Of a stretch of DNA of 64,000 nucleotides, positions 29,259 to 64,000 are shown in pieces. Origin of the DNA: Periconia sp. R9002 (lineage: Eukaryota; Ascomycota; Dothideomycetes; Pleosporales; Periconiaceae). The stretch's first letter is position 1. Every line of letters starts with the position of its first letter. Under the pieces are notes generated by a model. That model had not been told where the DNA came from. It did not search any database and worked only from the letters and a program-made list of their open reading frames with translations. The stretch lies in assembly GCA_023627715.1 (NCBI GenBank), contig JAMAHW010000066.1, forward strand, positions 62,001 to 126,000, given 5' to 3'. A program made the translations under genes and the position numbers.

Positions 29259-29917
29259 GGTGTTTGTTGGTGGTGAAGATGGGGTTGGCGTCTTTGGAAT
29301 TGGAGTTGGAGTTTTTGTGTGTCGAAAATGTCATGAAGACGTGATTTAATATACTTGATAAATCTCATAGATTATTCCATGTCTTTTCCTCCGTGAATAC
29401 ATTTCGGAAGGTATTTGTTCCATTATAGGCTAGTGTTTAGTGATCCGGTGGTGGAGCTACGTTTTAGAAGATGCATGTTCGCCCGATACCGTAGTAGTGT
29501 TCACTAAAACGGTGAAGACGTTCTACCGCATCCCGATGGAAAGGTATGCGACGTCGAGGTACACTGTCGGGGATTCCGAAGTTCCGAAGTATGCAGTCTC
29601 GTATATTTCTTTTCACGACTGAAAGAGGACAGCCATGTTCTGATTTGGGTTTAGCTGATCAGCCCCCGCATGGCAGGATGTTCACAGCCTCGTTCATCTG
29701 GCAAGAACTGTTCGAATAACGGCGGAACTCACATTCATCCACTCACAGATTCGAGCTTTTGTCCCGGAACGCGGAATCCACTTATGGAAATTCAGAGTTT
29801 CTTGAGCCTGATTGATGCTAGCTTGGTTGAACTGTCGTAGTTCGCGTGGCTGGCCGTGAGTGGCTGCCTGAGATCAGGAGCCTAGCTGATCGGTTGAACA
29901 ACCCAATACACCCCAAT
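29259..29917. other. divergent intergenic region (SDR / kinase gene)
   Basis: 659 bases lie between divergent starts. A 60-codon ORF at 29440-29622 has no recognisable feature. The frame upstream of the kinase ATG stays open for some 70 bases but contains no ATG, so an upstream exon for the kinase gene is possible. Confidence 0.4.
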
Positions 29918-44243: not shown

Positions 44244-45620
44244 ATGTGGAGCACTACCGTTTTGTCAACGGTGCTGATCGCCAGCGTTCACGCATGGGTG
44301 CCGGCGGACCGCGACCTTGCCGCTTTCAACCGGACTTACGATGTGAACGGCAAACGCAGCCTCCCTACTACCAAGATCCGTGGCGTCAATCTTGGTGGTT
44401 GGTTGGTCTCTGAGCCCTGGATGATGTCGAATGAATGGAATACGATAGGGTGCAGTTCAAGCCAGTGCTCCGAGTTCGACTGTGTGAACTTCTTAGGACA
44501 ATCAACGGCCGATCAGCGCTTCAACGACCACTACGCAAGATGGATTACCCCGACTGATATTCAGAAAATGCACGATGCGGGCCTGAACACGATTCGGATT
44601 CCGATTGGGTACTGGAGTTTCCGGGATATTGTGGACAGTAGCGAGCATTTTCCCAACATGGATCTGAAGTATCTTGATGCGGTTATCCAGAAGGCGGCCG
44701 ATCTGGGTATGTTCGTTGTTATGGATCTGCACGGTGCCCCTGGGGCGCAGAAAGCAGGAGATGCATTTACGGGACAGGTAAGCCTAACAAAAAGCCGGGA
44801 TACATGGGAACTTGCTAACACCAGTCAGTGCCTTCCAACCGCGTACCTGCCAGGCTTCTTCACGCAATATAATTATGACCGCGCCAAGCGCTGGCTTGAC
44901 TGGATGACTCGACGTATCCACACCACGCCCGCGTACCAAGCCGCCGTTGGCATAATAGAAGTTGTCAACGAGCCTCAAACTAGTCGCGATCAGGGTGGCA
45001 TGCCGCAACAGGAAAAGGATACCTTGACACAAACCTACTACCCGCAAGCCCTGGCCGCAGTGCGAGCCGCAGAAGCCTCGCTCAATATCCCAGCCAGCCA
45101 ACAACTGCATGTCCAGTTCATGGACCAGCTCTGGGGCGCTGGTAACCCGAAATCAAATCTCCCGGGCGATAGCCGAACCGTTTTCGACGACCACAACTAC
45201 GTTGGCGGCGCAGTCTCGGCCAACAGCCACCCTAACGATCCCCAGAACGTCAAGCAAGCTGACTACATGTGGTATACCTGTTATACCGACAACCGCCAGA
45301 CAGACGGAGACAGTCCAAAGATCGTTCAAGAGTTTAGTTTGACGGTGTCCGGAGACGTCGAGAACAACAGTGAGTTTAACTGGCAGACCACAGCGAACCA
45401 ACCCTTTTACAAGCAGTGGTGGATTGCACAGCAGCGCCTGTATGAGCAGACTAACGGATGGATCTTTTGGTCGTGGAAGACTGAGTTGAATAATCCGAGG
45501 TGGGATTATAGTTATCTTGTTTACCTTGGGTGGGTGGGGACGAGTGCAGCCGCGTTGGATGCGAGTAGGCAGCAAGATGTATGCTTGAGTTATTTTGGCA
45601 AGTCCGACGGGAGAAATTGA
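44244..45620 (+). CDS. exo-beta-1,3-glucanase, GH5 subfamily 9 (secreted)
   Basis: The exons are 44244-44777 and 44829-45620, which give 441 residues. The 51-base intron (GTAAGC, GCTAAC branch, CAG acceptor) is a multiple of three without stops, so it can also be read through; removal restores the usual spacing between FTGQ and the LPGFF..YNYDRA block. A signal peptide (MWSTTVLSTVLIASVHA) is present. GH5_9 motifs are IRGVNLGGWLV.EPW, IRIPIGYW, MDLHGAPGAQ, the acid/base Glu226 in VVNEPQ, DDHNY, and the nucleophile Glu346 in IVQEFS, followed by GWIFWSWKTE. The enzyme releases glucose from beta-1,3-glucan and acts on fungal wall or storage glucan outside the cell. Confidence 0.93.
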   Translation: MWSTTVLSTVLIASVHAWVPADRDLAAFNRTYDVNGKRSLPTTKIRGVNLGGWLVSEPWMMSNEWNTIGCSSSQCSEFDCVNFLGQSTADQRFNDHYARWITPTDIQKMHDAGLNTIRIPIGYWSFRDIVDSSEHFPNMDLKYLDAVIQKAADLGMFVVMDLHGAPGAQKAGDAFTGQVSLTKSRDTWELANTSQCLPTAYLPGFFTQYNYDRAKRWLDWMTRRIHTTPAYQAAVGIIEVVNEPQTSRDQGGMPQQEKDTLTQTYYPQALAAVRAAEASLNIPASQQLHVQFMDQLWGAGNPKSNLPGDSRTVFDDHNYVGGAVSANSHPNDPQNVKQADYMWYTCYTDNRQTDGDSPKIVQEFSLTVSGDVENNSEFNWQTTANQPFYKQWWIAQQRLYEQTNGWIFWSWKTELNNPRWDYSYLVYLGWVGTSAAALDASRQQDVCLSYFGKSDGRN

Positions 45621-46865
45621 TAGTCTGGACGACAGACTTCGTTAGCTAGCGAATTTCCTAACTTGATCTAGAGCCTGGTGCTACATACGCAGAATAATTT
45701 AGGCGTTTAGTCTTGAACTCATCTGGGTGATACTGTTCAAGAAACGACGAATGATGGTCTGAGCTCGCTAGTCCATGAAGGATGGACTCTTCAATCTTCC
45801 CTCCGGCGTCCTCTCTACTAGAGCTATCCTTGCTAGAACGGCCCGCATCATCACCATCTTCCCCACCGGTTTTACCATTATCAGGGTTGTCATTGCCCAT
45901 GTTATTACCATTGCCAGTGCATCCGCCACCATTATTTGGTGGTCCCTATTGTCGAGCTTGTTGGACAAGTTGCAAGTAGTGGATATGAAACTCTTCACTG
46001 CCCTTGACCTTGGTTTGATGAAGAATGGTGCCAGGTGCAATAGGCGTGTTGACTAAGCGCAGATGCCCAAGGTAGTTAAATGGTGACTTCTAGCTCTCTA
46101 TCAGCGGCCATCTTACACGTCCTTCTCCGCTCACCGTCCGACTTGAAAAACGTGGTTTTCGAGAGAGGATTAGAATCCGTATCTCGTCAGAGAAACAAAT
46201 TATTTGTTCTGACAGATTCCAAAGCTTATCCAGCTGTGAGCTTAGTCGATACAAACCGCCTGCCATTATAGATCCTCTTGCGTGGTTCTGGAACAGTCGA
46301 ATATGCAATGTCCCTACCAGCTGTTTCTGCATTTCGAGATTCACCACACGGGTAGACTGGGGACAGAGATCTACTTTGCGTCTTTGTTCAGTCCCGATTC
46401 TGGCGAATGTTTTTAAACGTTTGTAGGAACTTGTCGCTTGCGATTAGTCAGTGTTTATACGCTGAAACTTCCATCTGGTGGCTTAGGCTTTATTGTTGAT
46501 ATTTGTGCAAACGCCTGAAGGTGACAATGAGTAGTTTAGTAATTTCCCTGCGATTGTGGATGTTGCATTATCTTGCCATTGAGAAACAAGGAATACGTCC
46601 GACGGGAATACTAGCTTGAACCATAGTTGATAGCGGTGCAAATTAGTAGCAACTAGAGCAGCAAATCTAGTGTAGATCGATTGCATTTGTGCAGAGTGCA
46701 TGCTTGCAACCTATCACCTATTGGCTTCGCCAGGTGAATGAAATGAGTAGTGTTGTCTGATAATTGATCAATCGAATATCAAATTATGTCGGCAGAGCTG
46801 TTGGCCTGGGCTTCCGTAAAGGTGTTTAAGCGTGTGGTACAAGGTATTGTGCCTCGGCTATCAGA
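45621..46865. other. intergenic region with gene-fragment-like frames
   Basis: No intact gene is supported. Weak minus-strand coding-like stretches occur at 45658-46053 and about 46090-46350 (see next entry). The rest is AT-rich. Confidence 0.4.
45658..46053 (-). pseudogene. possible decayed gene fragment
   Basis: One minus-strand frame reads a protein-like segment (PGTILHQTKVKGSEEFHIHYLQLVQQARQ), meets a TAG, then continues with a Gly/Asn-rich and acidic stretch to a stop at 45658. The TAG could come from CAG by a C-to-T change, as in the HET relics nearby. The family is not recognised. Confidence 0.25.
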
Positions 46866-48176
46866 TTATGACGTAAACACTCTCTTCCAACGACGCCCAC
46901 TGACCTCTCCGTCGTTGTACCACACACCGTCGACCTCATACGACACGTCTTCAATCCTGGCCCGGCTTGGGGAATCCATTCCAAACAGTGCATACAGCGT
47001 ATCTGCCACTTCAGCTTCCCAATCTAGCCAGCGTCCATTCTCCTTGAGCAGCATGTCGATCCTCACCAACACCTTCCAGCAGAAGCTCAAGTACTTCTTC
47101 AGTTCCTCGGCATTCGCAACATGCAGAGGATCGTTGGGATAAAGCGTCCTTCCCACTGCCTCGTACCCAGCTTTTCCCAAGATATCCAGTGCGAGCTCAG
47201 CCGGAATCCCTTTCTTTCCAAGTAGTCCGTAAACTGCGGCGACGTCGGTTTTCGTCGGCACATGCACGCCTTTGAAATCATCCTCGACGATATCCTCAAG
47301 GCTCTGTGTGCCAATGTTTTTTTCCTGCCACCCTTTAAATCCAGGTTTGAAATACTCGTATCGGAACATGCCGCGCGGTATGCCGAAGAATTCACGATGC
47401 GGATACGTGTGTACTTCGTAGTGGCCCACCGCATACGGCACCGCCGTACAGTAGAGCACCATCTGCTGATACGCCGCCGTCAATCTGTAATCATACTGCT
47501 CTGATTCAAGCGTTGCTCGGTGCTCCCGAGTCTGCCTTTCCATATACGCTGCCCGGCTGGCTGCATCGTATAGTTCTGGCTTGAGGAAGAAGACGTTGAG
47601 ACAGATGTACGCCCGGAGCATCGACTCCTTGAGCTTGCTGAGTCCAAATCCGTGCGAATTAGCATACATGTTCTCGTCCCACAGTTTCCAGAAGTAGCAT
47701 TTCGGGTGCACGGCGAGCCGAAGGAGCGCATCCATTTCGCCGTAGAGGATCATCGTTTTCGTCTGCTCGCACAGGTCGAACAGCCCATCATGCATGTCGC
47801 CTTCGGGTGCAGACGTCTCGTCGATGAACCACTTCGCAGAGCGATCGTACGAAGAGAGTTCTAGGCTTTGGCCCCTGTTGTTGGTCCTGTATTGCCGGAC
47901 TGTCCTTGCCATTTTCTTCTCTGCGGCGTCAGAGACCATGATTTCTTCCTTTTCGGGAGCTGTAGGGTTTGCATCGTATTTCTTGCGCTCTATGACCGAG
48001 TAGTCTGAGAGCGCTTTGCAGAAGCCACGGACGAAGTATTGTAGCTCCTTTGGCTGGCCGGGCCTTTTGCTGCGCAGGTAGAGGTTCGTTCTGCCGTGGC
48101 TGCGCGGGTTCATGTATACATATTTGAAGTTGTCGGCAAGGGTTTGCCAGGGGATGGAATGCGCCTGATGCGCCAT
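46866..48176 (-). CDS. uncharacterised fungal protein, 436 residues
   Basis: A single uninterrupted exon runs from ATG at 48176 to the stop at 46866. The protein is mixed alpha/beta in composition and rich in aromatic residues, without signal peptide, membrane segment or recognisable enzyme motif. Its second half has a stretch (VYGLLGKKGIPAELALDILGKAGYEAVGR..YPNDPLH) that I associate with C-terminal regions of other uncharacterised Pezizomycotina proteins. It has normal codon use and no stops in contrast to the decayed DNA around it, so it is probably functional. The role is unknown. Confidence 0.72.
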   Translation of the reverse strand: MAHQAHSIPWQTLADNFKYVYMNPRSHGRTNLYLRSKRPGQPKELQYFVRGFCKALSDYSVIERKKYDANPTAPEKEEIMVSDAAEKKMARTVRQYRTNNRGQSLELSSYDRSAKWFIDETSAPEGDMHDGLFDLCEQTKTMILYGEMDALLRLAVHPKCYFWKLWDENMYANSHGFGLSKLKESMLRAYICLNVFFLKPELYDAASRAAYMERQTREHRATLESEQYDYRLTAAYQQMVLYCTAVPYAVGHYEVHTYPHREFFGIPRGMFRYEYFKPGFKGWQEKNIGTQSLEDIVEDDFKGVHVPTKTDVAAVYGLLGKKGIPAELALDILGKAGYEAVGRTLYPNDPLHVANAEELKKYLSFCWKVLVRIDMLLKENGRWLDWEAEVADTLYALFGMDSPSRARIEDVSYEVDGVWYNDGEVSGRRWKRVFTS

Positions 48177-50001
48177 GGATTGAGCGATGCAAAGTGTAAT
48201 GCTCTAAACAAAAAAATTAGCGGATGGAGATGTAGAGAAACGGTTGTGGGAGGTGAAGAGTCATTATTGTATATGTACTCGATACTACTTTGGGGTAGTT
48301 TAGGCTGCGCTTAACCGTTCGTGTCACTACTCAGGTCTACTCAGTACTAGCATTTCGCTCACTAAGCTCCCGAACTTCTATCGCCGTATCACTAATGCCG
48401 CTCTAGTCATGCGAGTCTTTGCCTTCATCCATTCTTGCAATGCCCAATCTAACCTGATTTTGCCCGCCACCGATAGGGGACTTGCTTCTTTAGGCCTACG
48501 CTTCGTCTCTATCCGTACTGCGTACCATCGTTCTATGCTCGGGCATCGAGTTTCCAAAAGTTCTTGTACTACTAATGTCAAATTTCCGTTTCAAGAAATC
48601 ATAGTATTTGACGTCACCAGTAGCATTCTGCGCTGATAATGATTGTGCTGCCGCAAACCTCCTTATCCATCAGCTACCAGAACGAGGCTGAGGATCATCA
48701 GAACGATATTCAATCGTGTATGTAGTATTTTGCTTCATGTTGCTTTGGTGTGTGTTGCTTTGGTCAACGTGTGTTGCGGCCTTGGAATGTGACAAAAAGT
48801 ATCCGGGATAGTAGATTCAAAGCAAGGGTTCGGAATAGCGATTAGCGATGGAAATTCAAGGCGAAAACAGTTATCTTGTGTAAATTTGAATATCAGTAAA
48901 CTGTCGACAGAGCGCTTTTTATATAGTGAAATTGTTGCTTTCGGGTTTCCAATCTCTTCTAATGATATCATGACTCAAACAATGATAAATAACGGAATCA
49001 GTGCCGACAGATGTGCCAAATTTTTAATTTTAAGTTGTGGAACAGCTACGAATATATACCACGCATCATTTTGGAGCCCTGGCCTGGATATCATGATACG
49101 GTACATCACACACTTCTGCAATTGTTAAGACGCTCCTCTCAGCCATCGTTAAGGCGCAATACGCAACAACTCTCACCTCGAGGGCTGCGTCGCAAACTAT
49201 CTACCAGCCCTGGCCAATCAGCTGCTCGAGGAGGGTCTTGAAAGCTACCTGGCGTAGCTGAGTTTCGTTGCATAGCTGGGTGGGGTTACTGAGGCAGCTG
49301 GCGACCCAGCTGGGGCCCTACCAAGCGATCCGAATCGTCTCGATTTACGCCTCTAGGAGACGCAATTTGATCAGTAAGCTCTCTGAGGTTGTGCGCCGTC
49401 CTCAGCAGGTCACCTAATATAACCAATATAGCCAGCCTACCCACAAGCGTACGCTCCATCCAGGTCACGTATGCCGCGAGAGAGCTCTCCCAGCTTTAGA
49501 AGAGGGTTCAGAACGTCTCCGTCTCTCTTACAAGCGAGGCTTTCTTAGGTAAGGCGCGACGCTTGTAAGGATCTTATAAGCAGTAACAAGGATGTAATAT
49601 TTGGTAGAATACGTCTCCGGAGATAGATTTCCACCGAACGCTCCATTGATTTCCATCCAGAATTGCTTACTCACCGAAAAAAATCGCATTCCAGGAGAGA
49701 ATTTGGGCTATTCTGGGCTCTACCAAACAGGCCCTTAGAACTTTATTTCGGGCGGGGCGAAGTCCGGAGCAAGGGCAAGTGACTTCCTCTATTACCCTAT
49801 TCGGATATCGCTGGTCAGCCACACAACTGGCATGATGCTTAGTGATACGGAACCACAGCTTCTCTGATAGTATTGTCCTATCCCTTCCAATCAGCCGTTT
49901 TGTCAAACTAAATAGAAATGACAGAGCTTCCCTCTGTGAACAAAGATTTCGCTACTCAACGCATTCCCTTTCGAAGATTTCCTTAATCCTTCCGTTTCAA
50001 A
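48177..50001. other. 1.8-kb region with decayed coding-like DNA
   Basis: No intact gene is supported. The + strand at about 49270-49560 reads like a helical protein interrupted by stops (LRQLATQLGPYQAIRIVSIY, RNLISKLSEVVRR, then shorter pieces), suggesting an old gene relic of unknown family. The remainder is AT-rich. Confidence 0.4.
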
Positions 50002-51077
50002 ATGCAGCTCAAGGCCTTTTGCCTAGCTTTTGCACCAGCCGTTCTTTCAGCTACTATACCAGACCCGATCAGAGCCCGTCAATTTGCCCACAGTATTGAC
50101 AGGCCGTCGGACCTGCAAGGGATCAATTGGTTCTATGCAGAAGCAGAGTGTGATTACCGTCAACAGGCTACGCTTTTCAGAGGTCTCAAAGATGTCATTC
50201 AATTAGCCTATGCAGCTCTTCCTGCTCCAGGAGGAATTGGCGATAATCCAATATTCAAGGATTTTTGGGGATACGGATATAATACGGTACGGTTACCAAT
50301 CTCGACTTTCTCCTTCTTGCGATATTGGAAGCTAATATATGACTTTCATTCAGGGACCGCTCCAGAACAGGTTCAATACAATTTTTAACAACTTGGAAAG
50401 AGCCGGCCGATTCCCTTCCTATGGTAACGGGGGAGAAGGAGAAATAAACCAGTTGAACGTACGATGCAAAGACTACAATCGTCAGTGTAGTTCGAGAGTG
50501 TACGAAGCGACAGCATCCCAGAGACTTTTAGCATTCAAGGCTGACCAAATGTGCAAATAGGATGGCCTATGTTAGAGGGAACAATATGGTGTTATGTCCA
50601 GACTTTTGGTCTTTTGCATTCCCACATCTCACGGATCGCGTCAAGGGCAAGCCAACCCGAGCACTAGATGAGCTGATGACCATCGAGCACATTCTTCTTC
50701 ACGAACTCATGCATGTGGACAACGCCGGATTCCCAGAGCATATCTCTGATATTCAAACCATCTTAGTGGGTGAAAGCGATAATGCAGAAATACCCGGTGG
50801 GATAACTCCTGTAGTCGTGTACGGTGTCCAACGCTGTAAAAAGTTAGCGAAGAAGTACGGGGAGGAGAGACCAAATTTGCAGACATTGAAGAATGCGGAT
50901 AATTACGCTTGGTTTTCTTCAGCGTATTACTTCAGCAAGGCGTGGAGCATAACCGTCAACGAACCAGAAAGCTACGTTGAAGGCAGTGTCACAGGCAATC
51001 CATATGCGCCACCAAACAGCGGTTTTAAATATGCAGATGACGATTTTAGCGAGGCAGAGTGGACAGCAGGTCCGTAG
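50002..51077 (+). CDS. secreted zinc metalloprotease, M35 (deuterolysin)-like
   Basis: The exons are 50002-50286, 50354-50499 and 50561-51077, which give 315 residues. Introns start GTACGG and GTACGA and end CAG and TAG. A signal peptide (MQLKAFCLAFAPAVLSA) is clear. The zinc motif HELMH lies at 191-195 and is preceded by the extended strand V.CPDFW typical of fungal M35-like proteins. Downstream, YGV..C..LA and NADNYAWFSSAYYF correspond to the region that supplies the third ligand in aspzincins, although a GTxDxxYG motif is not obvious, so it belongs to the divergent M35-like branch. Cys pairs suggest disulfides. It likely degrades extracellular protein, or could act as a secreted effector-like peptidase (inference). 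Confidence 0.82.
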
Positions 51078-51528
51078 AGACTTTTCAAGAATGTGAGCAG
51101 TAAATAGAAAAAGCATTATATTTAATCTTAAAGGTTTAGCACTGCATGCTCTATTTTTTTAGAGAATTAAACTCTCTAGGCCGTCGTTTGCACCTCGACT
51201 TTCAAACAGCATTCAACGTGTATATTAGACTCACATGCTTCGGAAGCAGAGTGAATATTGTATGCATATATGGGTTAAATTAAAATCGGTAGCCGTCAAC
51301 TTTTAAAACGAGTTCGTTGCGCGTGGTTCGCGTTTGAGAAGGCAAGAGTCGCGTGACTGCTTTGTGAGCGGCAATTCAGTCGAATCTAGCTAGCACAATT
51401 GTAAATTATGTCGTTACACAAGATTTGGAGGAATTTCGGATGAGGTCTTCTGCAGGTTAAAGGGCTGTCTATTTATACCACTTGGATGTAAAAGGAGGCC
51501 GGGTAGAACATGTATAGATGATAATAAC
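51078..51528. other. convergent intergenic region
   Basis: 451 AT-rich bases lie between the protease and monooxygenase stop codons. No gene is visible. Confidence 0.4.
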
Positions 51529-52996
51529 CTATACAAGCACCGAATCCTCTAAAGAATCGATTGTTTCCTTCCACGTCTTTGCGATATCATTCTGATATAT
51601 CCAAGACATGTCCTTCCCCCCACCGTCAATAATCTTATTCCTTACTCTCTGATCATAAGTCGGATTACCCAAATCCACCAGATTCTTCGCCCGCCGCGCA
51701 GCCTCGGAAGCAAGATGCTCATACATTCTGGCATAATAGGGTAGGCGAATGGCGTTGAACAAAGGTAACGCACGACTCAGGTCATTCTGATAGTAAGACA
51801 GCGCTTGAGCTAAGATCCACCCATCTTCCATGGCGAAACCGGCACCCGACCCAAATGCTCCGGAGAGGGCATGCGAAGAGTCACCAACGAGCACTACTTT
51901 ATCCCATGCTACTAGAGTTTCCAGTTCTGGGCCAGCAAATGCGGCGAATTCGCGCCAGTTGCCTTCTGGAACTCGTCGTAGAGCCTATAAGGTCAGTGGG
52001 CTTGGAATCGCTTTGGAGAGCTGGGTACTTGCTTCTTGGATTTCTGGTAAATACTCCTGGGTGGATGTCAGTGGCCACGTCTTGAAATTGAGCGATGTCA
52101 TACCGTGAAATGCGAATCAACATGTGCATTTGTCACGGGTACGCCCCAGCTGACCTTGCTTGCACTGTGGGTAGCAGGATCATGCCACGCTCTACTAGCA
52201 ATCTCCCAAAGACCTTCTCCTACCAGTGAAAAATACACGTGAGTAGTCGGCGTGTGCCACCAACCCGTCACTCCGAATCGTGGATCCAGATCTTTGACGT
52301 CGTCCCAGGGAAGAAGAGTTCGCCATATGGTTGTCCCCGTGAACTTCAATTCATAATTAGGCCATGCTGCATCTCTCACAACCTGCACAGGACCTTGTTA
52401 GTTTGTTTAGTCTGCGGACACTCCAATTTCACACACCGAACGAATGCCATCGGCGCCGACGACTAGATCGGCAATGACCAAAGTTCCATCTTTGAAACGC
52501 AGCTCTACGCCTTCTTCTCCTTTATCCACGACATGGACTAGCTTTTTAGACAGTTGTATTACCCCAGGCTTAACATGCGCCAGTAAAGAGGACTGCAACT
52601 TCGTTCTCTGTGTCCGAATCGGAGTCCTCCCTTTTCCACTCGTCCCTTTGATTCCCCGTCTTCTGGACAATTCCTCGCCCGATCGTCCGTTCCTACATGA
52701 AAAACAAGGACTCAATTCAAAATTCAAGGCACTGATGGAACCACTCACATATTCAACACCTCCAACGTCTCGTGCCCGGTGTTCACGGTATCAGCAACTC
52801 CCAGGAGGTCCAAGACATTCCAAGAGTTTGGGCCGATGCTTATTCCTGCTCCAACTTCCCGTAGTTCACGCGCCTGTTCGTATAGTGTGACTTCAGTGTT
52901 GGAGTTGCGTGATAGGGCGATTGCAGTGGCCAGACCACCTGGACCTCCGCCAATGATCGCTACGCGTAGGTGACGGGCGGGGTTGCCGACAGTCAT
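51529..52996 (-). CDS. FAD-dependent monooxygenase, salicylate hydroxylase-like
   Basis: The exons are 52996-52749, 52692-52437, 52382-52104, 52056-52033 and 51984-51529, giving 420 residues. The FAD-binding GxGxxG motif is GGGPGG near residue 16. GADGIRS is the DG motif, and VGDSSHALSGAFGSGAGFAMEDG is the GD motif with the second FAD contact. The family is group A aromatic hydroxylases (UbiH/COQ6 and salicylate/kynurenine type), which insert one oxygen using NAD(P)H. The fourth exon is only 24 bases, and the following intron begins GCAAGT, a recognised GC-AG donor; this restores the conserved HFTEY...ALRRVPEGNWREFAAFAGP region. Some residues between the FAD motif and exon 2 appear shorter than usual for the family. 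The substrate is unknown. Confidence 0.85.
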
Positions 52997-53369
52997 GTTG
53001 CATACTTTGGGTTTTCTAAAAAATGTAGAAAATACTAGTCAATCTGATTGAATTCGTTACCCACCGCAGTTATAACAGGCTGTCTATGTACAATATCTAA
53101 CGTGGGGTGAGAACGCAGCTTGCATATTCGTCATTGGCCTCATAGATGACGTGCGAGGGAACTCCCGCGAGAGATAACAAATGACGCCAGAAACATAGGT
53201 GATAAGACTGGGGAGTTTATAAGCACATTGAAAATACGATGGGTCGATTTTGATGATTTCTCAGGGAGACCGAGGGATGTTACTACTTCAGTAAAGTGGC
53301 GCAATGACACATAGAAGAATATCGATTTTTTTTTGAGAATATCAACACCATTAAAAGCGGATTTGCGCA
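52997..53369. other. intergenic region upstream of the monooxygenase
   Basis: 373 bases contain the monooxygenase promoter. No gene is supported. Confidence 0.35.
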
Positions 53370-54068
53370 GAGGGGAGATTGCTAAATTGGGCCTGCGATT
53401 CTTGATACAAAGGAAATCAACCGGATGCCTCCAGATAAGATTATATCCACCCACAATTTTGCCGCAGGATCTCCTTCATACCTGAGCAAGGCGACCAAAA
53501 AATTCAGGTTTGGAGAGACAATCGCAATCAGCCCACCAAACATTGTCAACTATATTCAATCTTCTATCCCCTCAGCTCGAAATATAGTTTTGTAGGCCAT
53601 GGTATCATCAATGACCTTCAGGCTTTACAGGCTCTCGATTTCGAGTATCCAGTGCTCCTCTCGAGCGTTTGAGATACCTTTTACATCGCTAATGAGGTGT
53701 TTGAGGATTGGGCCGGGTCTCTTAACGATTTACTCCTTGCTTTAGGAATTTCCTTCAGCAGGCTTCATTGTGCAGGCAATGACGCTAATTTTACACTAAG
53801 AGCTCTACTTCTTCTGACTGCTTGCGGGTTTTCTAAGCAGCAAGGAGAGCAAGAAGAGGATCGCGACACGCTTGTTTACCTGAGGCAAATTTTAGCCTCT
53901 CCAATACCACGTTGGGTCGATCCAGAGGTACAAACTATGCAAAACAGGGAAAGGAGGCGTGCAAAAAGTCGGAAGCACCAATCAAAGACGTGGAGCAAGG
54001 AAAAACAAGAAGAAATCCGTGCAGCTCGACAGCTTAAGAAAAAGCAGAACATTACGAAAGCTGGATAA
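53370..54068 (+). pseudogene. Gfd2/YDR514C-like RNase H-fold exonuclease, decayed
   Basis: The pieces follow the order of this DEDDh-like domain: LGLRFLDTKEIN near 53380, KKFRFGET..ISPPN, SARNIVL, then GHGIINDLQALQALDF from about 53597, DTFYIANEVF, and SLNDLLLALGI.FSRLHCAGNDANFTLRALLLL to about 53825, ending with a basic helical tail. A one-base loss near 53590 shifts the frame and a TGA at 53669-53671 interrupts it (likely CGA to TGA). No start codon is visible, so the 5' part is also lost. The intact family probably degrades or binds RNA; QIP-type relatives act in RNA silencing. The gene is broken. Confidence 0.7.
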
Positions 54069-54784
54069 TTGAGCAATTAGCCCTCCCTCTTGTCGCAAGA
54101 GGCGGTGCCACCTGCCTTATTTCTCCAAGGCTTAGACGATTAGAACGCCATCCATAATAGCACATCGATATTTCCGTGCATAGAATTGAAACAACAGGCC
54201 AGGCCTTCAGGCTTCCACTAAGCAATTCTGAATTCGCCGCACATATCACGGAATACCTGTACACCGCCTGCACTGGAGAAACCTCATATCGATATTAAAT
54301 ATCCCTTTGGTCGGGTCCTTCGCACTCGTACTGCCCCAAGCTTTCTGAAAATCAAAGTTGATTTGTTACACTCTCGAAAGTCAAAATACAGACTTCCTAC
54401 CGCAGCGCTGTACCTGACTGCAATATCGAGCCTTTATACTCGAATAGTTGCAATTACTCCGTTCCAACCTCTCTAAGCATCCGTTCCCTTATATCCGAAA
54501 ACTATCCGCTCAACATTTGTTTTCAAAATGCAGGAGTCGACGCGTCCGAAGTCTCCTTCGGCCAGCATGGCCACTAGATCAGGACGTGATCGTCCATGCA
54601 CATTACAGAAAAACCAAGAAAATTAGCATCCGTCTCTACACCCGTTCTAACTCTCCTGCATGATCTGATACTTAGGAAGTGCAGTTTGGATTTGAAGTGG
54701 CTGGCTGTACCAAGATCAAAAGGTCAGTTGGATAGAAAAAGTGCCAAAAAAGGATGCGTCAGATGCGGGGATCAATGGTAGTTT
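54069..54784. other. intergenic decayed region
   Basis: About 716 bases without a supported gene lie between the exonuclease relic and the dispersed repeat copy. Confidence 0.4.
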
Positions 54785-54975
54785 GCGTGAATGTAGATAT
54801 CACGTCTTTTTCTCCCCCCCCCCCTTCTCTCTCAAAAAACAACAAGAACGAGAAACATTTCCTCCGCTTACCTTTTTGGCTCCCTTCTTGTCGAGAAAGA
54901 GTGTACAGTTAATTATGCCATTGTATTCCGTCACTACACACAAAGACTTCGACTTTTCCGAGTCTCACTACTTCA
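54785..54975 (+). repeat. dispersed repeat, copy B, joined to a HET fragment
   Basis: This stretch aligns with 36437-36650 in the same orientation (see copy A). It starts in the GTGAATGTAGATATCACGT block and ends just after GAGTCTCACTACTTC, where the sequence switches to HET-domain coding DNA. Confidence 0.75.
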
Positions 54976-55085
54976 ACCGATATAGGTTCAAGAAGGCCGA
55001 TTTATGTGCCCGGCAAACGTTGAAGGATGGATTTTCTTACTGTTGGATTGATACTTGTTGCACTAGACAGAACCACCACCGGTAA
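54915..55085 (+). pseudogene. HET-domain N-terminal fragment (copy 2)
   Basis: The 56-codon frame starts in the repeat copy and from about 54985 encodes KKADLCARQTLKDGFSYCWIDTCC, a well-preserved HET segment. It ends soon after the TCC block, as in copy 1 at 41940-42187. The bases after the block also match copy 1 for some 80 positions, up to and including a GC-rich hairpin. It looks like a truncated HET gene captured behind foreign DNA. Confidence 0.8.
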
Positions 55086-55108
55086 CGCCCTTCGAAAAAG
55101 GTGGCATA

Positions 55109-55128
55109 TGCCGCCGAAAGTGGCGGCA
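55109..55128 (+). other. GC-rich hairpin, copy 2
   Basis: TGCCGCC and GGCGGCA form a perfect 7-bp stem around a GAAAGT loop. Compared with copy 1 at 41890-41909 the outer pair is T-A instead of C-G, so the pairing is preserved although the bases differ. Confidence 0.7.
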
Positions 55129-55140
55129 GAATGTTATTTG

Positions 55141-55672
55141 ATAAGTAACAAATAATATACAGCGGAGGAGCGAAGTTAGAGCCTATAGGTAGCTCTGATT
55201 TAATACTAACTTGCACGTTTTTTATGCGTACGACCCAATGCGTCCTCACCCTGTACATAACTTTTTAATACAAAAGTAGAAATTACTTTTTTCATGTGAC
55301 AATCCTTGTTCTGCACCCCCGAGATCAGCGGCCCCCTCGGCCAAGCAGTGGCTGAGTGAGACTGAGCTCGCCCATTTCATGTTTCACTCTATTCCGTTGG
55401 CGAGACTAAGGTGGCTAAGCCTTGAGCAGCACTCTCTCGTATCCAGGGTGATCAATGCGTTTGGTTGATCTGCCACTTCATCGGATTGGACGCCATGAAA
55501 TGGGACGGGATTCACCTCGCAGCGTGGCGGGGTAGTCGGAAACCCGTATCCAGCCTCAAGCCTGACGAGGGATAGAATATGCGCAATTTATTATGAGCTA
55601 TGCCGTTTCAAACTGAGTTGAACTTTACATGTTCGAAAATCGCATTATTCTCTGCCAAAGTGATCCACAACC
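55141..55672. other. upstream region of the deaminase-kinase gene
   Basis: 532 bases without a gene; it should contain the promoter of the next gene. Confidence 0.4.
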
Positions 55673-58600
55673 ATGAGTAAAGATAAAGAGAGCTACACCC
55701 TTGACATTCCAAAAGCGCAAGCCCAGCAAATCTGGAGCCGGTCTGATTTGGGACTCCAGAGGGAGAAGTTTTATGCTGCCTTTTATGCAATCCAGATTTC
55801 ACAAGTGCAGCAGCAAGCAGGTTTGGCATCGAACAGTAATAAAGCGAGTAGGAACTAACGGCTTTGTTAGAAATAAAAGTGGATATTGAGAGAAGCGCAG
55901 AAAATCTGTTTCTTGATCGTCTCGCATTGCTCTTCGCTCGGATCAAAAGCGACAGAACCAAGACACCAGCAAATGTCACCGCCACATGTCTCGTGCGGTA
56001 CGACTCACGCTGGGATGTCTATATCGCGAAGAACGATGGTCCCCAGAGTGGTAATGAAACATCCCCAGAAGATGAAAAGTCATTTGCGAAACAACTTCAA
56101 GACTGGATACGCACGGAGGCCATTAATGAACCATTGAACGAGGAAGAAGAAGAAGAAGATGATGATGATGTTGATGATGATGAGGAGGAGAATGAAACTT
56201 TGGTCAATGGGGCAGATCGACCTATGTTCATACAGATGGCCAACTTTTGGAAAGACCGCATGTCCTTTTACATTGGAGAGACCAAAACTGTTTGGAGGCA
56301 GATAGCAAGCAGTAGAACCAAAGTCGAAGACTACTTTCGACTACGTGATAAGAAGTTTACCAAGGAACGATTCCATCGGGATTGGGACAGAGCGGCCGAG
56401 CTTGCAAACTTTTTGCAAAAAACATGTCCCAATGCAGCCATGACCAAAAAATTTCTTCGTACATTCTACGAGTTTTGGAAACGAAGTGGGGGAGAAGATT
56501 GGCATAAACCACTGCCTTCAGAGCCAGAAGAGGCACGAAAGTTTCGCAAATGCATTAGGTACATGGAAATGCTCGGCATGCCAATGTCGGCGTGGAATGC
56601 GTGTGTGCGATTCCGAAAGTTGTCCGACTACAAGCCCGTCCACCTCATTCCAATTGAGAAGCCCGTTTTCGACGAGTCACGGCTTGATAAGGAGAGTATC
56701 GCTCAAATCTTGAAATGGTGGAAGACGAAGAACAGTCTCATCGACGTCCGCAAACCGCTTGAAGGCGTAGAAAATATGGGTGTCAAACCAGAACTATTCT
56801 TTCATTGTGAGTTGCAAATACTCACACTACTGACGAAGTTGCAGTCCAGAGGGGCTCACTATTTCATCGGCTGCAGCAAACTGTCCTGCGAGTCGTGTTG
56901 GTTGATTCTGAAGAAAGATGAGCAGTTCACTACGCGCGGCTCTCACCATAAAGTATCCGCAAATTGTGCCTTTCCGTTTCCGAGAGATTTCGAAAGCATT
57001 GGAAGGAGCATCAGGCACATGCAGTCAAGTTGGAAGAAAGCAATCTTTTCAAACTCGATCAGTATAAGCCATTTACCGCTGGACGACACCGATCAAGCCC
57101 ACACCCAGTGGAACATGGCAGCTGAGGTAATCCATCAGCTCAATTGCGCATTTCAGTGGACTAACTTGTGATAAGGAATCCGCGGTCAACCTAGTCGAAA
57201 GCCTGAATTTGGCATACCATGCTTTGGATACTAGTCCGTACAAAATCGATAGACACATCAAGCCTAGCAAGGGATCGTTTGCAAGTGTGTACTCAGCATG
57301 GAAAAGCAACACAGACAACGCGGTGCCTCAGACCCAGACTTCTTATGCGTTGAAGGTGATGATTATAACATCTTCAAAGAAGAGCGAAATGGTGAAAAGG
57401 GAGATAGAGCTTCTGCAGCGGCTTAAAATACTTCCACATCGCAATGTGTTGCAGTTCGAAGAGGCATTCTACCAGGAAAACCCGCGTACTATTGTCCTTG
57501 CAACCCAACCATTTGTGCCGTTGTCGCTGGAAAAATTCTTCAGCAAGACACTGGATTACCGCCGCGAGCACTGGTATAGGCCTCTTGAGCTTGAGCCATG
57601 GCAAGGAGTCATGAAGCAATGCGTCGAGGGGCTCGAATTCCTGCATGGACAAGAGCCGCAGATCCTCCACCTCGATTTGAAACCACACAATATACTACTA
57701 CAAGAAATCGTCAACGCAAACCGAAGAGTAGAAATTCGTCCCATCATTGCAGATTTCGGGATTAGTACAGAGCTGCCGGTTCGGGATGCGACGCAACGAC
57801 CGGGAACGCATGAATACATGTCGCCCGAGTTGCTCGATGACGAAAAATCTCTGCCAACCACAGAGTCAGACGTATGGGCTCTTGGTTGTTGCTTCGCGCA
57901 GATTTTTGTACTTTTTCGCTACGGCGAGAGGGCGCTGGCTGATCTCCTTGGGAAGATTCGCAATCAAGACCAGCCAGGATTCTCCAAAAACCTGGAAAAA
58001 GTGAAGTCGATGCTAGAACAGCCTGACAACCGAAACCACTCCAGCGGCATGCTCGAAATCTTTGCCGGATTTCGAGAATTGATTTCCAGCATGCTAGAGA
58101 TTCAACCGGTGCACCGAAAAACGTGCAGGTTCATACTGGCAGATTTGCAAGAGATTGAGGCTCACATGGAAGTCATGAAGCTTAACATTCCGAGAATAAT
58201 CATATGCCAGCAAGTTGGTGGATTGGTCTTCACCAGAAGCATCAATGGCCAAAACCTGCCTAACATTGAGCGACTTGTTGTGGGCTTAAGCATGATTCGG
58301 AATACGAACCTGGTGAACATGGTCTACAGTGGGGTTTGGCGTATATTGGGAATTTGGCTTGCACCATCGGCACCACGCCTGGTATACTTAGTTTTATCCA
58401 AGGACGACAAATTTATCCGAAAGGAGGACAACTTTCCAAGAATGATGAGTCGACCGTCTCCAAGACTCAAAGCCATTCACGGATCGGCTAATGGCGCGAT
58501 ACAAGAGTTAAACAACACTTACAATGTCTCACTAACGCAGGTATTTTGGACTGCCAGCAGGCAATTTTATGCAGACATATCAACATTGTCCAAAGCGTGG

Positions 58601-58774
58601 AAGCAAGAAGGCCGCTCAGACAAGAATACAGTTCGAGAATGCGGTTTCTTAGTCAAGTATGAATTTAACCTGTTTGCCCTGGTCATTATTTCTTGTTGGG
58701 TAGTGTCCATTTTTTATTTCCTCTTTCAAACTATTGGGGAAACAAAATGGTTCTCTTCTTTGGACATTTGGTGA
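55673..58774 (+). CDS. OTT_1508-like deaminase / Ser-Thr protein kinase / transmembrane fusion protein
   Basis: The exons are 55673-55820, 55871-57126 and 57176-58774, giving 1000 residues. Introns are 50 and 49 nt with CTAAC branches. Residues 140-160 form an acidic tract. At 359-420 lies a cytidine-deaminase-type zinc site: H361-C-E363 (HxE) and S-C389-E-S-C392 (CxxC) inside the YFIGCSKLSC signature, followed by TRGSHHKVSANC, which matches the fungal OTT_1508-like deaminase family. Residues ~490-790 are a full kinase domain: Gly loop near 501, Lys528 in YALKVM, HLDLKPHN with Asp635, DFG at 661, and PGTHEYMSPELL. A hydrophobic helix (FNLFALVIISCWVVSIFYFLF) near 965-989 ends the protein. Catalytic residues of both domains are intact. 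The join rests on the second intron (GTAATC to GATAAG); if it is not spliced, two genes would be read. A nucleotide or RNA-modifying effector controlled by a membrane-bound kinase is inferred. Confidence 0.78.
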
Positions 58775-59444
58775 AATTTTATCATCAATGATACGCATGT
58801 AGTTAAAACTACCACACCTCTCCTGTCCAGGAGTGCAGTGATGATAGAATGACACTGTAAATGGAACTTTCAATGTTGGTCGAAATTCATATCCACTCAG
58901 TGTCTGCCAGACCCTACTTGTCGGTGGTCATCGAAAGTAGTTTCGAAGCAGCGAGCTCAGCAATTAGAAAAAGAACGGTAGTTCATACTCTCTATACGGT
59001 ACTTGAAAATTCTCCCAATCTCCCTGCTCGCGCAAATTATATTCTCCTCTGCGAATAGTCAAAACCTTTCTGCAGACACTCGCTGCATTCTCGTATTGAT
59101 GCGTCTCAGCCGTACAATGCTCCTGTTCTCCACCTACCAGACGCTGCTATTTTCCGGATTATATGATCCTGTCTTGGACATCAATTGATACTGACACAGG
59201 CCTTTGTTACATTGATATCATTGACCCTTGATGTCGAAATAGGAACGTGGCTTACATACGCGAACTGCCAAACTCCATAGTAATTGGACACCATTATTCG
59301 TGCAGCGTACGTAAGAAAAAAAAGGCGTGGGTTGTAGACTTCAGCTCAGATTTGTTCCCTTGTTCCCCCCCTCACCACGTCAAGCTACTTCCGCACTCCG
59401 TCCCTTGAGTAATCGACAAGACTTTGGTGCCTCCGGTGGAATTT
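58775..59444. other. intergenic region between two tandem + strand genes
   Basis: 670 bases; no gene is supported. It probably holds the promoter of the ankyrin/CorA-like gene. Confidence 0.4.
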
Positions 59445-62070
59445 ATGCAATCTTCTGCCAGAAAATGGGATATCTGGGACGATTATGGTCTTCGCCTTAC
59501 GGAGGCTGTAGAACACGCATTAGAAACGGGGGCTACCGGAGTCGATTTGCTAAACGCTCTCAGTATCGGAAGCGCGGAAAATTTCAATCCAGGCGACTCA
59601 TTCGATCTCGTATGGGACGTGATGCAGCTTTCGCGACCTGAAACAGACGTTTTTACTTATGTATTCTCCCGCATGAACCGCTTGCTTGGACAACTTAAAG
59701 AAAACCTCGGGTTTAATCTCAATCTCAATGGGTTAAATAAACACGGAGTTCCATTGGTATATGTCGCGGTCAAAAAGTGGAAAATCTACGCGTTAGAATT
59801 ACTGCTTATGCATGGCGCAGATCCAGACGTGGAGTCGACAGCACGAGTGAAATATGGAACTCTCGAACGATTTGCGGCGACTGAGGAGTATACAGGGGAG
59901 AGGTCCAAGGTCGGCGATCGCGAAACTATGGAAGCAATGTTGGATGCGAGTCGCATTCATGAGCGCATTCCAGATGACTATTTCGCAGTCACCTGCCTCC
60001 AAAGGACCAAAAGCAGCAACCATGTGATACTAGAGAGCAATATGAGCGCCTTCAAGCTACCTTGGGCCTCCGAAGACATAGGTAACTCTCGTGCCGCCTG
60101 GATTCATGTTGCAAGCAATAATGTAAGACCAATCGAGGTCAATTGTGCTTCAAGGGGTTGCTAATAACACTACAGGCAGCTTTTATATGTGTAAGCCCAG
60201 AGCATGATGTGAAGCTCCAGCAACTGAGTTTTACAGGCATTGGCTGCAACGCTGAGGAGATACCATGAGTCGATGTTGAACATGTCTGAACAAATGATTA
60301 ACATCTTTGAACATCCGACAGTAACCGCAAATCAACCGTTCCTCAACTATCTCAATCCTGGATACGAATGTCTAAGGTCTGGTTTCCCCACGAAAGGTAT
60401 CGTTGTGATTGTAGTACGTCTCCGCTGTCAGTAACTCCAGAATCGGGCACTAAAGATACAGGTTCCATATTTTGCTATGCAGACGATGGCAGAGTGGGAA
60501 ACAGCGAGGAAAAAATACCAGGATGCGTTTGAAGCCTTGTGGCCGGAAATCTTGCAAGGCGACGAGAGTAAACCACCTCGAAAGACCTACGCCACCCGTA
60601 CCCTCGACGAAGCGCACTACCCCGGGGTTGATTCCGAACTTACCATGCGAAACAACAAGGACCAGGTCATCCAAAACCAGATCAGGGGGGAGATTGCTAA
60701 AGGGTACAGGAAATCTCCGTTGCTTCCTATCTTAACTGTTCCCCAACTCTGGATCTGGCGAGCTGAGAACACCTTGGTCACGGCATGCCCAGTCACTGGC
60801 CCGTCTTACGTTTTTGAGAGATCGACGGAGAATCCAAGGCGCATGTTCCCGCAAATCGACGGCAGCGCAGCTCTAGATCACCACATAGCGCGCATACTTC
60901 TCGATGTCATTGGCAGATTGGGAGAGAAGTATACCGACCCTGAGCTGGGCGTATCGTTCCCACCCGTATTCGATATTTTTGAAGCACGGCTCCTCACCAT
61001 TACAGGTGAAGTTCAAGACTACCTGAAACCCAACCCAAAAGCTTCAACGGATCAGCTGTTACAGATCGATATCGAGAGGGAGAAGTACTTCATCCATTCT
61101 GTCGCTGATCTCCAAAGTGAACTGGGCATGATCGAGGAGATGATAAGACAGCAAACGAGTGTGGTGACGGCGTTTGAACAGGGAAAAATGAAGGAACTCG
61201 ACGACAAAGAAGAGGATGCCAGGCGAGACATCAGTGCGTACCAAAAGGAGAGGTTGCAAACAGGCAATGTTCAATCGTTTCGTGATGTTCAATCGTTTCG
61301 TGATAGCTACAAACACCGGCTACCCTATGATATCGATGATGACATTGCGTCATTCTTCTGGACCACGTGGGATGACTATCATGACGACGAGCTGGCTATC
61401 CTTGACAAGATAGCACGCTGCACTCAAAACGAAAGAGAACTTTCTCGCCCCGTGTTCCGCCGCATACACATCCGGCTCGAAGCATACAAGACGCGGATCG
61501 CGAAGATCAACAAGGATGCGAATAGGGTGTCGAAAACCATCGACGACATGCTCAATCTTCGGCGGACATACGCAAGCGTCCGACTAGCCGAGAGCAGCAT
61601 CAGCGAGGCGCGTCAAAGCGTCTTCGTCGGCCTCGTCGCAATCGGCTTCGCGGTGGTAACAATCATCTTCACGCCGCTAAGCTTCGTCACGAGTCTTCTG
61701 GCGTTGCCGCTGTACGACCCTGCATCGCACCCCGAGTTGGGCCACCCAAGCTACATCAATAAGATACTTAGTTAAGTGTTTCAGCCATTGACGATGATGA
61801 TCTTGTACTGACTGACGATTTGTTGAAGTCTCGACGGAAGTGGGGACTTTGATCTTCACATTCGTCTGCGTTGGGTTGGCGTATTTAGCGTTGAAGACTT
61901 CGAGGAACAATCACCAGCACCTATCATCCTCGCCGAAGTCGGATGGATCACGAAGCAGCAGGGACCAGGAACATGAACAACTTGCAGCCCGCGGCGGCTA
62001 CAAGGGATTGCGGGGCTTCATGGGTCGGAAGCTGGGAAAGAATCGGACACGAGAAGACGACCTTGAGTGA
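59445..62070 (+). CDS. ankyrin-like / CorA-like magnesium-transporter-family membrane protein
   Basis: The modelled exons are 59445-60122, 60176-60190, 60237-60413, 60462-61770 and 61829-62070, which give 806 residues. The 15-base exon is tentative; skipping it leaves the frame intact. The N-terminal part has at least one ankyrin-like unit (GVPLVYVAVKKWKIYALELLLMHGADPDVES). The middle shows the fungal CorA-like pattern: PWAS...SRAAWIHV, then PILTVPQLWIWRAENTLVT, a long helical stalk with the KTIDDMLNLRRTYASVRLAESS region, and two membrane helices at about 677-705 (FVGLVAIGFAVVTIIFTPLSFVTSLLALP) and 732-751. The GMN motif of true CorA channels is not seen. Such proteins are often multicopy in Pezizomycotina near HET or NLR genes; transport is unproven. 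It follows the deaminase-kinase gene on the same strand. Confidence 0.82.
61269..61304 (+). repeat. 18-bp in-frame tandem duplication
   Basis: GTTCAATCGTTTCGTGAT occurs twice in a row without a mismatch, adding a second VQSFRD to the stalk of the CorA-like protein. Perfect identity implies a recent event. Confidence 0.95.
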
Positions 62071-63089
62071 AAAATAGTCGCTACAACCAGGGCGAACACC
62101 CAAGGCGCCAACACCTGGTCGCAAGTATCGACGTGAGGAATGACGAAACTATCTCCAGAAGATGGTTGATACAACTTCGCAATCGCACACACGAAGGATT
62201 TAGTACGCATCTCTTGCATTGCCGTCCGAGTTCACCAAAGCTTTTTGCGTTGGAAGATTGATGGGTTCAAAGGGTATTGCATCAGGGCCACGCGTTTTCT
62301 TTGACAGAGTGTATGAATACGATAACAGGTGAGTTTCTTACTTGTTTATATATTTGTTTGTCTATTTTCTTGGTTTCTGGTGTATGTAGCGGTTGTTTTG
62401 GCGTCGTTCCCTCCACTCTCTATGGAAGGGTGGTTTAGGTAGGATGTGTACTAGTATAGTATGTATGTGTGTGATTATCCAACCCTGAGGAATAGACAAA
62501 ACATTGCCATCTAGACTTTCGACTAGGGAATCTACACAGGCAGTCAAGAAGAAAAAGCTTCTCGACTCGAGTGAACTAAGAGTTCTAGGTGGTATTCAAC
62601 CGTTTCCTCCTCATGCTCACTTGTCTGTACATCCAACCCACTGCAAGAAAACCCCCCAGAAAAATAAAAGCCAAAAAAAGAGAAACCATCTGGGTATCCA
62701 TCCATCCGTCTGCGTCAGGTAAAACGAAGAAGAGAAAGAAAAAAAAAGAAGTCCGTGCGAGGTACACACTTCCTCTCCTCTCCTTATGCAAAAGAGAAGA
62801 AAAAAAGTATGGGGGTATATCCAAACCATGCAAAAAAACCCATGCATTTCCGCGCAGGAAAATCCAGAAAAAAAAGAATAGGTATAAAAAGAAGAAGGGG
62901 AAAACGCCTTCAATGTGGTGTTAAACAAGAAAGAAAGACAATGATGGAAGTGGTGATGGTGTGAATGCAAAAAAACATGAAAAGGAGGATATTACAAATA
63001 AAAAGGGGGGTATTGACACCTGCGCTATGCAAAAAAGACTCCAGTGCAGTGTCGACAAAATGCCAAAGTAAGTATGAGAAAACACGGTC
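62071..63089. other. convergent intergenic region
   Basis: 1.02 kb between the CorA-like stop and the stop of the last gene. The part from 62660 to 62960 is extremely A-rich on the + strand (T-rich for the minus-strand gene 3' UTR). No gene is supported. Confidence 0.45.
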
Positions 63090-64000
63090 TCAACAAGTCC
63101 TATTCACCTGTCCATTCCCACGGATCCTCGTTTCAAAAGATTTATGCCCAACCTCCATGAGCAGGGCCGTCAGTGCGCTGTTGTAGACAGCCATGGCGCT
63201 CGTAGAGTGAATCAAGTACGACTGGTCCGCGTTCTCCGGCCATTCTTCCTGGGGTATGCGGCCGGGAAGTGCCTGCTCGTTGCGCTTCTCCCAGTCCTTG
63301 CGCCACATTTCGTACTGGAGGTCCCATCGCTTCTCCACGCGCCTCCTGCGCATCTTCATGACGGAATCCAAGTGGTCTTGTTCCTGGTTGTGGTGGTACG
63401 CCTCCTGGCTCAGCTGGTGGTGCATTTCCTTGTCGAGCTGTTCCAGTTGCAGTTTTTGTTTTTCGAGTTTGTTCCGCATGTCGCGGTCTTGCTTGGCGCG
63501 GAGCACGTTGATCTGGCTGGCGTGTTTGTCCGGGAGTTTTTGCTGCAGGACGCGCTGGCGGTCTAGTTTTTTCAGGTCTTCGGCTGTGACTTCGCGGGTT
63601 AGGGTGGGGTCGGCGGAATTGGTTCCTGAGCAGTATGCGGTCATGTGTTTGAGTGCCGTGGCCACGTTTTGCGTTTCTTGTGCTTGGGATTTCCAAAGTT
63701 CGTGTTCCATGTTGAGTTGAAATTCTTCCAGACGTTCGAGCTCGATGGGGTGCTAAAGAATACTGTAAGCATGATTCACTATATGAGTACCGCAATGCCA
63801 CTAACTTGTTGCTTCTTGTTGTGTCTGTCGGTTTCGAACTGCGCCTCAATACCCTTGAGAATACAGTGCTGATGGACAGCCAGCGCTTTCCACTGGTTTG
63901 CTTCGAATGATGCTATCCGCTCATACTGTTCACGTTGTTCCTTTCTGAGATTTCTGAAGTCCGCACACTCCATAGGATCGATGCTGATAGATTTCTCCTC
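63090..64000 (-). CDS. fungal coiled-coil protein, C-terminal part (5' end outside the window)
   Basis: Two exons are visible, 64000-63806 and 63752-63090, giving the last 285 residues. The 53-base intron starts GTTAGT and ends TTTAG. The peptide is almost entirely helical and charged (FRNLRKEQREQYERIASFEANQWKALAVH, ERLEEFQLNMEHELWKSQAQETQNVATALKHMTAYCSG, LEKQKLQLEQLDKEM), as in a long coiled coil, followed by RRRVEKRWDLQYEMWRKDWE. I have seen similar C-terminal tails in uncharacterised Pezizomycotina proteins, but the N-terminal domain that would define the family is outside the window. Confidence 0.75.

Follow-up and report, generated by a model that had tools for sequence, protein, structure and literature searches.

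In Neurospora, the OTT_1508-like deaminases known as OLD, which carry the pattern HXEXnCXXC, edit mRNA from adenosine to inosine (A-to-I) in the antiviral system OLD-ZAO, where OLD corrects a premature UAG in the adjoining zinc-finger gene zao and drives an antiviral response (PMC12754623). A Fusarium gene related to zao, CHE1, encodes three C2H2 fingers (PMC11169179). A second paper, PMC13327615, doubts the generality of OLD editing, holds bacterial OTT and fungal OLD to differ in function and does not contain the word "kinase". Here we describe a gene of Periconia sp. R9002, found in positions 62,001-126,000 of contig JAMAHW010000066.1 (a stretch of 64,000 nucleotides, hereafter the window), whose predicted product combines such a deaminase with a protein kinase and a probable membrane helix. 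Our preferred reading, to which we give a probability of about 0.5, is that of a membrane-tethered, kinase-regulated zinc deaminase of the OTT_1508/OLD type encoded by one spliced gene.

The HXEXnCXXC signature of the OLD deaminases of Neurospora crassa is present in the window protein, which shares their OTT_1508 family and perhaps also their chemistry. However, where OLD has an adjoining C2H2 gene, ZAO, the window protein instead carries a kinase in the same chain, together with a hydrophobic helix. Six-frame pattern scanning, extended to 20 kb past the window, found no C2H2 neighbour over about 23 kb on the upstream side or 25 kb on the downstream side, although an intron-split finger would escape such a scan; the nearest motif, at 32012 and about 23 kb upstream, lies in a separate kinase-zinc-finger gene. 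A looser pattern, in which a final Cys was allowed, gave one reverse-strand match in a 66-residue open reading frame (ORF; 53879-54076) that we judged to be chance. Similarly, the flanks of about 2 to 5 kb around 12 paralog loci of the same genome held no C2H2 arrays, and with the looser pattern two matches, one in a cysteine-rich ORF and one inside a deaminase ORF. Membership of an OLD-ZAO pair was rejected because no such C2H2 neighbour was found.

The predicted chain and its relatives

Splicing of 55673-55820, 55871-57126 and 57176-58774 on the forward strand gives a predicted protein of 1000 amino acids. Exon 1 encodes residues 1-49 and the first base of codon 50, exon 2 the deaminase module (residues 50-468), and exon 3 a linker, the kinase, the C-terminal region and the stop. 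In the sequence, each intron runs from GT to AG and contains CTAAC. The intron at the deaminase-kinase junction (57127-57175, 49 nucleotides, phase 0) had been named by an earlier note on this DNA; the other (55821-55870, 50 nucleotides) comes in addition, and its removal leaves the start of the protein aligned without gaps to that of a relative, P0001, which supports this intron. Retranslation placed the zinc-site landmarks (HCE at 361, IGCSKLSC at 382-389, SCESC at 388-392, thus C389-E-S-C392) and those of the kinase (Lys528, Asp635 and the DFG Asp at 661) where the earlier note had put them, and its coordinates, gene model and motif positions were correct. From the sequences compared, the fused deaminase-kinase protein is almost certainly real.

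The profile search that the earlier note had suggested, with PF14441 and PF00069, was run and returned both domains above their Pfam cut-offs. The OTT_1508-like core (56800-56970, with H361-C-E363 and C389-x-x-C392) matches PF14441 over residues 360-416 (2.7e-10, 40.5 bits against a gathering cut-off of 27). Every sequence of alignment A3 (28, with the window counted) matches PF14441, and the H, E, C and C of the HxE/CxxC site are invariant in the aligned sequences (28/28). Such invariance of the zinc ligands and the catalytic Glu points to catalysis and not to binding alone, and the deaminase is probably catalytically competent. Ahead of the core, the AlphaFold2 model of exon 2 predicts a beta hairpin (55978-56031, residues 86-103; model strands 36-42 and 47-53), which is well conserved in alignment A5, and a large helical insert between the hairpin and the catalytic helix (56209-56616, residues 163-298; model helices 113-248). 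Foldseek with the deaminase model gave no match below E 0.001. A profile search of the PDB with A3 was uninformative for the deaminase, as all 60 matches shown of 235 were kinases, the kinase columns of the fused relatives having taken part.

The kinase domain (57269-58138, residues 500-789) matches PF00069 at 1.4e-32 and 113.6 bits, and the active-kinase residues K528, D635 and D661 are all present. Its predicted fold retrieved kinases with Foldseek (best 7.8e-12), JAK2 coming first and STK17B standing among the top five chains. The HxD and DF motifs were found in all 11 sequences that reach them, and the catalytic Lys is sure in 10/11, the P0008 record having no N-lobe. Similarity to the MAD6 kinase of bacterial methylation-associated defence (PADLOC, 1.2e-36) concerns the kinase domain only, with an NCBIfam equivalog score of 49 against a cut-off of 460, and the MAD6 and PD-T4-6 matches were judged generic. 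Behind the kinase, the exon-3 model has a mixed alpha/beta region predicted at moderate confidence (58193-58666, residues 808-965), followed by a hydrophobic, probably membrane-spanning helix (58670-58726, residues 967-985; model helix 499-520) with a Kyte-Doolittle peak of 2.59 over 19 residues. The number of C-terminal helices varies.

The lichen fungus Pseudocyphellaria aurata gave the best match among the named genomes, P0001 (49% identity over 96% of the query). Proteins with PF14441 followed by a kinase are annotated in six named genomes, namely P0001, P0005-P0007 from three Nemania, P0008 from Neocucurbitaria cava and P0016 from Fusarium albosuccineum, the last found by a search with a Nemania protein. 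The survey for the same domain order that had been proposed earlier shows this order kept in six ascomycetes that span Lecanoromycetes, Sordariomycetes and Dothideomycetes. The earlier note knew of no described protein of this kind. None was described in the literature matches listed either; public databases nevertheless hold this architecture, in unnamed or kinase-named entries to which both Pfam domains are assigned. A fungal deaminase-kinase fusion was not named in the titles or abstract openings among the open-access literature matches listed, and Honda et al. 2025, the reference for OLD-ZAO in Neurospora crassa, and Iyer 2011, reportedly a source for the link between the deaminase superfamily and bacterial toxins, could mention it.

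A maximum-likelihood tree was built from 41 deaminase modules, taken from 29 of the 136 proteins fetched, from 11 of the 12 own-genome paralogs and from the window. In it, the kinase-fused proteins, the records ending in donor-like codons at the junction and P0034 formed one clade of 20 rows supported at 93/87, or of 19 rows at 96/93 without P0032. P0034 has no kinase there since its record ends before the junction. Ten HCE-type proteins labelled as having another C-terminus fell outside this clade, although two of the ten, P0039 and P0040, stop too early for the label to be judged; P0076, P0028, the kinase-only records and the C203 paralog copy, which has an in-frame stop and a short piece, were left out of the tree. 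The kinase tree of 33 kinases comprised the window, 10 fetched fusion-type kinases (among them the kinase-only records P0002, P0003, P0004 and P0028) and, as outside rows, 16 of 18 chosen kinases with 6 of 11 own-genome kinase loci, those omitted being without the motif used for cutting. The 11 fusion-type kinases formed one clade (100/99), divided into Neocucurbitaria, Fusarium and Nemania (99/94) on one side and the window, Pseudocyphellaria and metagenome relatives (89/89) on the other. The deaminase tree branches in agreement and has the same two sub-groups. A single origin of the fusion fits these trees well but is probable rather than proved, as some branches are long and the outgroup kinases came from the same searches.

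In the 42.9 Mb assembly, a six-frame search recovered PF14441 at the window locus (45.4 bits) and at 12 other places, all above the cut-off. These 12 share PF14441 with the window protein but differ in having HAE instead of HCE (12/12), in having no kinase within 39 kb among the 45 kinase-like matches listed (which are not a full kinase census of the genome), and in forming a separate branch of the deaminase tree (11 modules, 100/99). The lower score of the window locus, the weakest of the 13, fits a divergent HCE subfamily. Among the paralog places (L022-L033), L022/L027 and L026/L028 look like pairs of near copies, and the C203 copy has the in-frame stop.

Eight of the HCE-type fungal OTT_1508 proteins outside the fusion clade (P0009-P0012 and P0035-P0038) have the same N-terminal deaminase module with HCE and CxxC, but their C-terminal region is without kinase. 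By eye, this region carries RGD[ILMV][YW] near its end and has no precomputed Pfam match. Perhaps these proteins represent a second undescribed fusion type.

A possible regulatory mechanism and its alternatives

The same join in distantly related fungi suggests a deaminase placed under membrane signalling. The C-terminal helix would hold the protein at the cytosolic face of a membrane, and a signal might lead to clustering and autophosphorylation, or to phosphorylation of the deaminase module, that turns the deaminase on. The kinase would then be the switch and the deaminase the effector, with control built into one chain. Once activated, the deaminase would act on RNA, most likely converting adenosine to inosine like its OLD relatives, and this action might serve a stress, antiviral or nonself response. 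These parts do not carry the same weight: the odds that the deaminase acts on RNA are about even, control by the kinase falls slightly short of that, and a defence-type role is more tentative still. The earlier note had read the protein as a sensor-effector in which kinase signalling at a membrane controls the deaminase. Of this reading, the single chain with a deaminase, a kinase and a probable membrane segment, both active sites being kept by relatives, stands, while control at the membrane is something that we infer. It had also left open whether the deaminase edits or damages nucleotides or RNA, which the review of OLD A-to-I editors (PMC12754623) sharpens towards RNA editing.

IRE1 combines a kinase and an endoribonuclease in one membrane protein. 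It shows by analogy, not kinship, that a membrane logic of kinase plus RNA-acting enzyme exists, and the likeness of the window protein lies in this logic. The two differ in that the window protein has no KEN RNase domain detectable by Pfam at E 1 or better, its deaminase precedes the kinase, its helix is C-terminal and no luminal sensor is seen. IRE1 kinases were the top PDB sequence matches of exon 3; kinship was nevertheless rejected, as the match is partial, covers 128 kinase residues and scores like those to GSK3, PLK2 and CDK2. The most specific form of the proposal, a membrane-tethered, kinase-licensed A-to-I editor of transcripts or viral RNA that senses a signal at the membrane in the manner of IRE1, with a deaminase replacing the RNase, is speculative and we consider it unlikely as a whole.

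Kinase control of nucleic-acid deaminases is known from cases in which the two are separate proteins. One chain that retains both active sites across three ascomycete classes would make the switching of fungal RNA editing directly testable, and it extends a deaminase family that has lately been linked to fungal antiviral defence by a branch bearing a kinase. If the proposal is true, fungi would have a further route for controlling RNA editing, next to the Ame1 cofactor and the OLD-ZAO gene pair.

The roles of the two modules might be reversed, the zinc module binding a nucleotide or RNA as a sensor and the kinase passing on the signal as effector. The constancy of HxD and DF in the kinases fits this, as does the helical insert predicted in the deaminase module, which could be regulatory. 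Such a sensor would not call for the invariant zinc ligands and catalytic Glu found in 28/28 sequences, and we hold this arrangement to be doubtful, at roughly one chance in a handful. Somewhat less probable is a toxin-like role, in which the deaminase would attack nucleic acids or the nucleotide pool during incompatibility or cell death, with the kinase part restraining it. The deaminase superfamily has been tied to bacterial toxins, in passages that do not name OTT_1508 (PMC3482391), few database genomes have the fusion, and Neurospora is harmed when edited zao, on which OLD acts, is overexpressed (PMC12754623). However, those fungal relatives that have been characterised edit mRNA selectively (PMC12754623), and the window ORFs scanned with Pfam gave no HET or other death-related match. 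A kinase-regulated, membrane-tethered deaminase is retained as our preferred reading.

The junction between deaminase and kinase

Another explanation would be that two adjoining genes, one for an OTT_1508 deaminase and one for a membrane kinase, have been merged by the gene model. Indeed, metagenome records give the halves as separate ORFs: an alignment search (120 of 121 matches listed) returned ORFs that end just after the deaminase, and P0002 (kinase) and P0023 (deaminase) each come from a 12,436-base JGI contig, probably one and the same. The question was judged from the proteins of relatives in a database of about 5.8 billion proteins. V-S or V-C stands at the junction in all 13 records that run past it (P0006, P0021-P0027 and P0029-P0033), against a background of V-[SC] at 447 of 98,011 positions (0.46%) over all fetched proteins, and it lies 24-30 residues away from the CW motif in 12/13 and 37 residues away in P0032. 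This count excludes P0034, which ends early, P0008, whose record skips the junction, and P0001, P0005, P0007 and P0016, annotated as spliced and with no insert seen. Read back from protein rather than from DNA, these residues probably represent translated splice donors of the GTAAGT/GTATGT type, and such donor-like codons in relatives back the 57127-57175 intron of the earlier note.

Other observations point the same way. The public annotation of P0006 seems to keep the junction intron, the kinase ORF P0028 begins via LTCDK-ES, which is a reading of the unspliced intron end of the window itself, and P0027 is a single ORF that runs on beyond the deaminase and reaches the first part of the kinase. 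Moreover, in the exon-3 frame of the window no Met precedes the catalytic Lys, the first one standing two residues past it; a kinase gene of its own would therefore start too late to include the ATP lysine, unless splicing joined it to upstream sequence. Together with the single-protein annotations in the six named genomes and the agreeing trees of both halves, these junction signals and the missing start codon led us to reject two separate genes, which we regard as very improbable, and one spliced gene is strongly favoured. Least probable of all is a chance or decayed, functionless fusion, for which the weakest PF14441 score in the genome and the varying number of C-terminal helices could be invoked, but which sits badly with long open exons and two intact active sites kept in relatives of three classes, the lower score fitting the HCE subfamily.

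Genomic setting

The earlier note had placed the gene in an accessory region full of HET relics, which is not borne out: Pfam scans that covered 31 distinct window ORFs, run at E 1e-3 and at E 5, gave no HET match. In a genome-wide HET search, in which 150 of 260 candidates were scored, the matches listed include one from this contig, and it falls beyond the window (C66:35229-35744). A GFSYCWIDTCC stretch at 55020-55070 (forward strand) resembles a HET-domain motif, but its ORF shows no HET domain by Pfam. No repeats of at least 40 bases were found in 45000-64000.

Among the neighbours, all on the forward strand, 53673-54068 is a fragment matching the C-terminal end of PF21762 (DEDDh exonuclease-like; 27.8 bits against a cut-off of 27), and 60435-61775 is an ORF of 446 amino acids with a hydrophobic C-terminus that is very weakly CorA-like (E 0.29). 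Further upstream, 29831-32125 holds a protein kinase gene with C2H2 fingers (31643-32012) behind the kinase. Its PF00069 match extends over two ORFs, and the stop between them looks like part of a small intron; this gene would be a second uncommon kinase fusion within the window.
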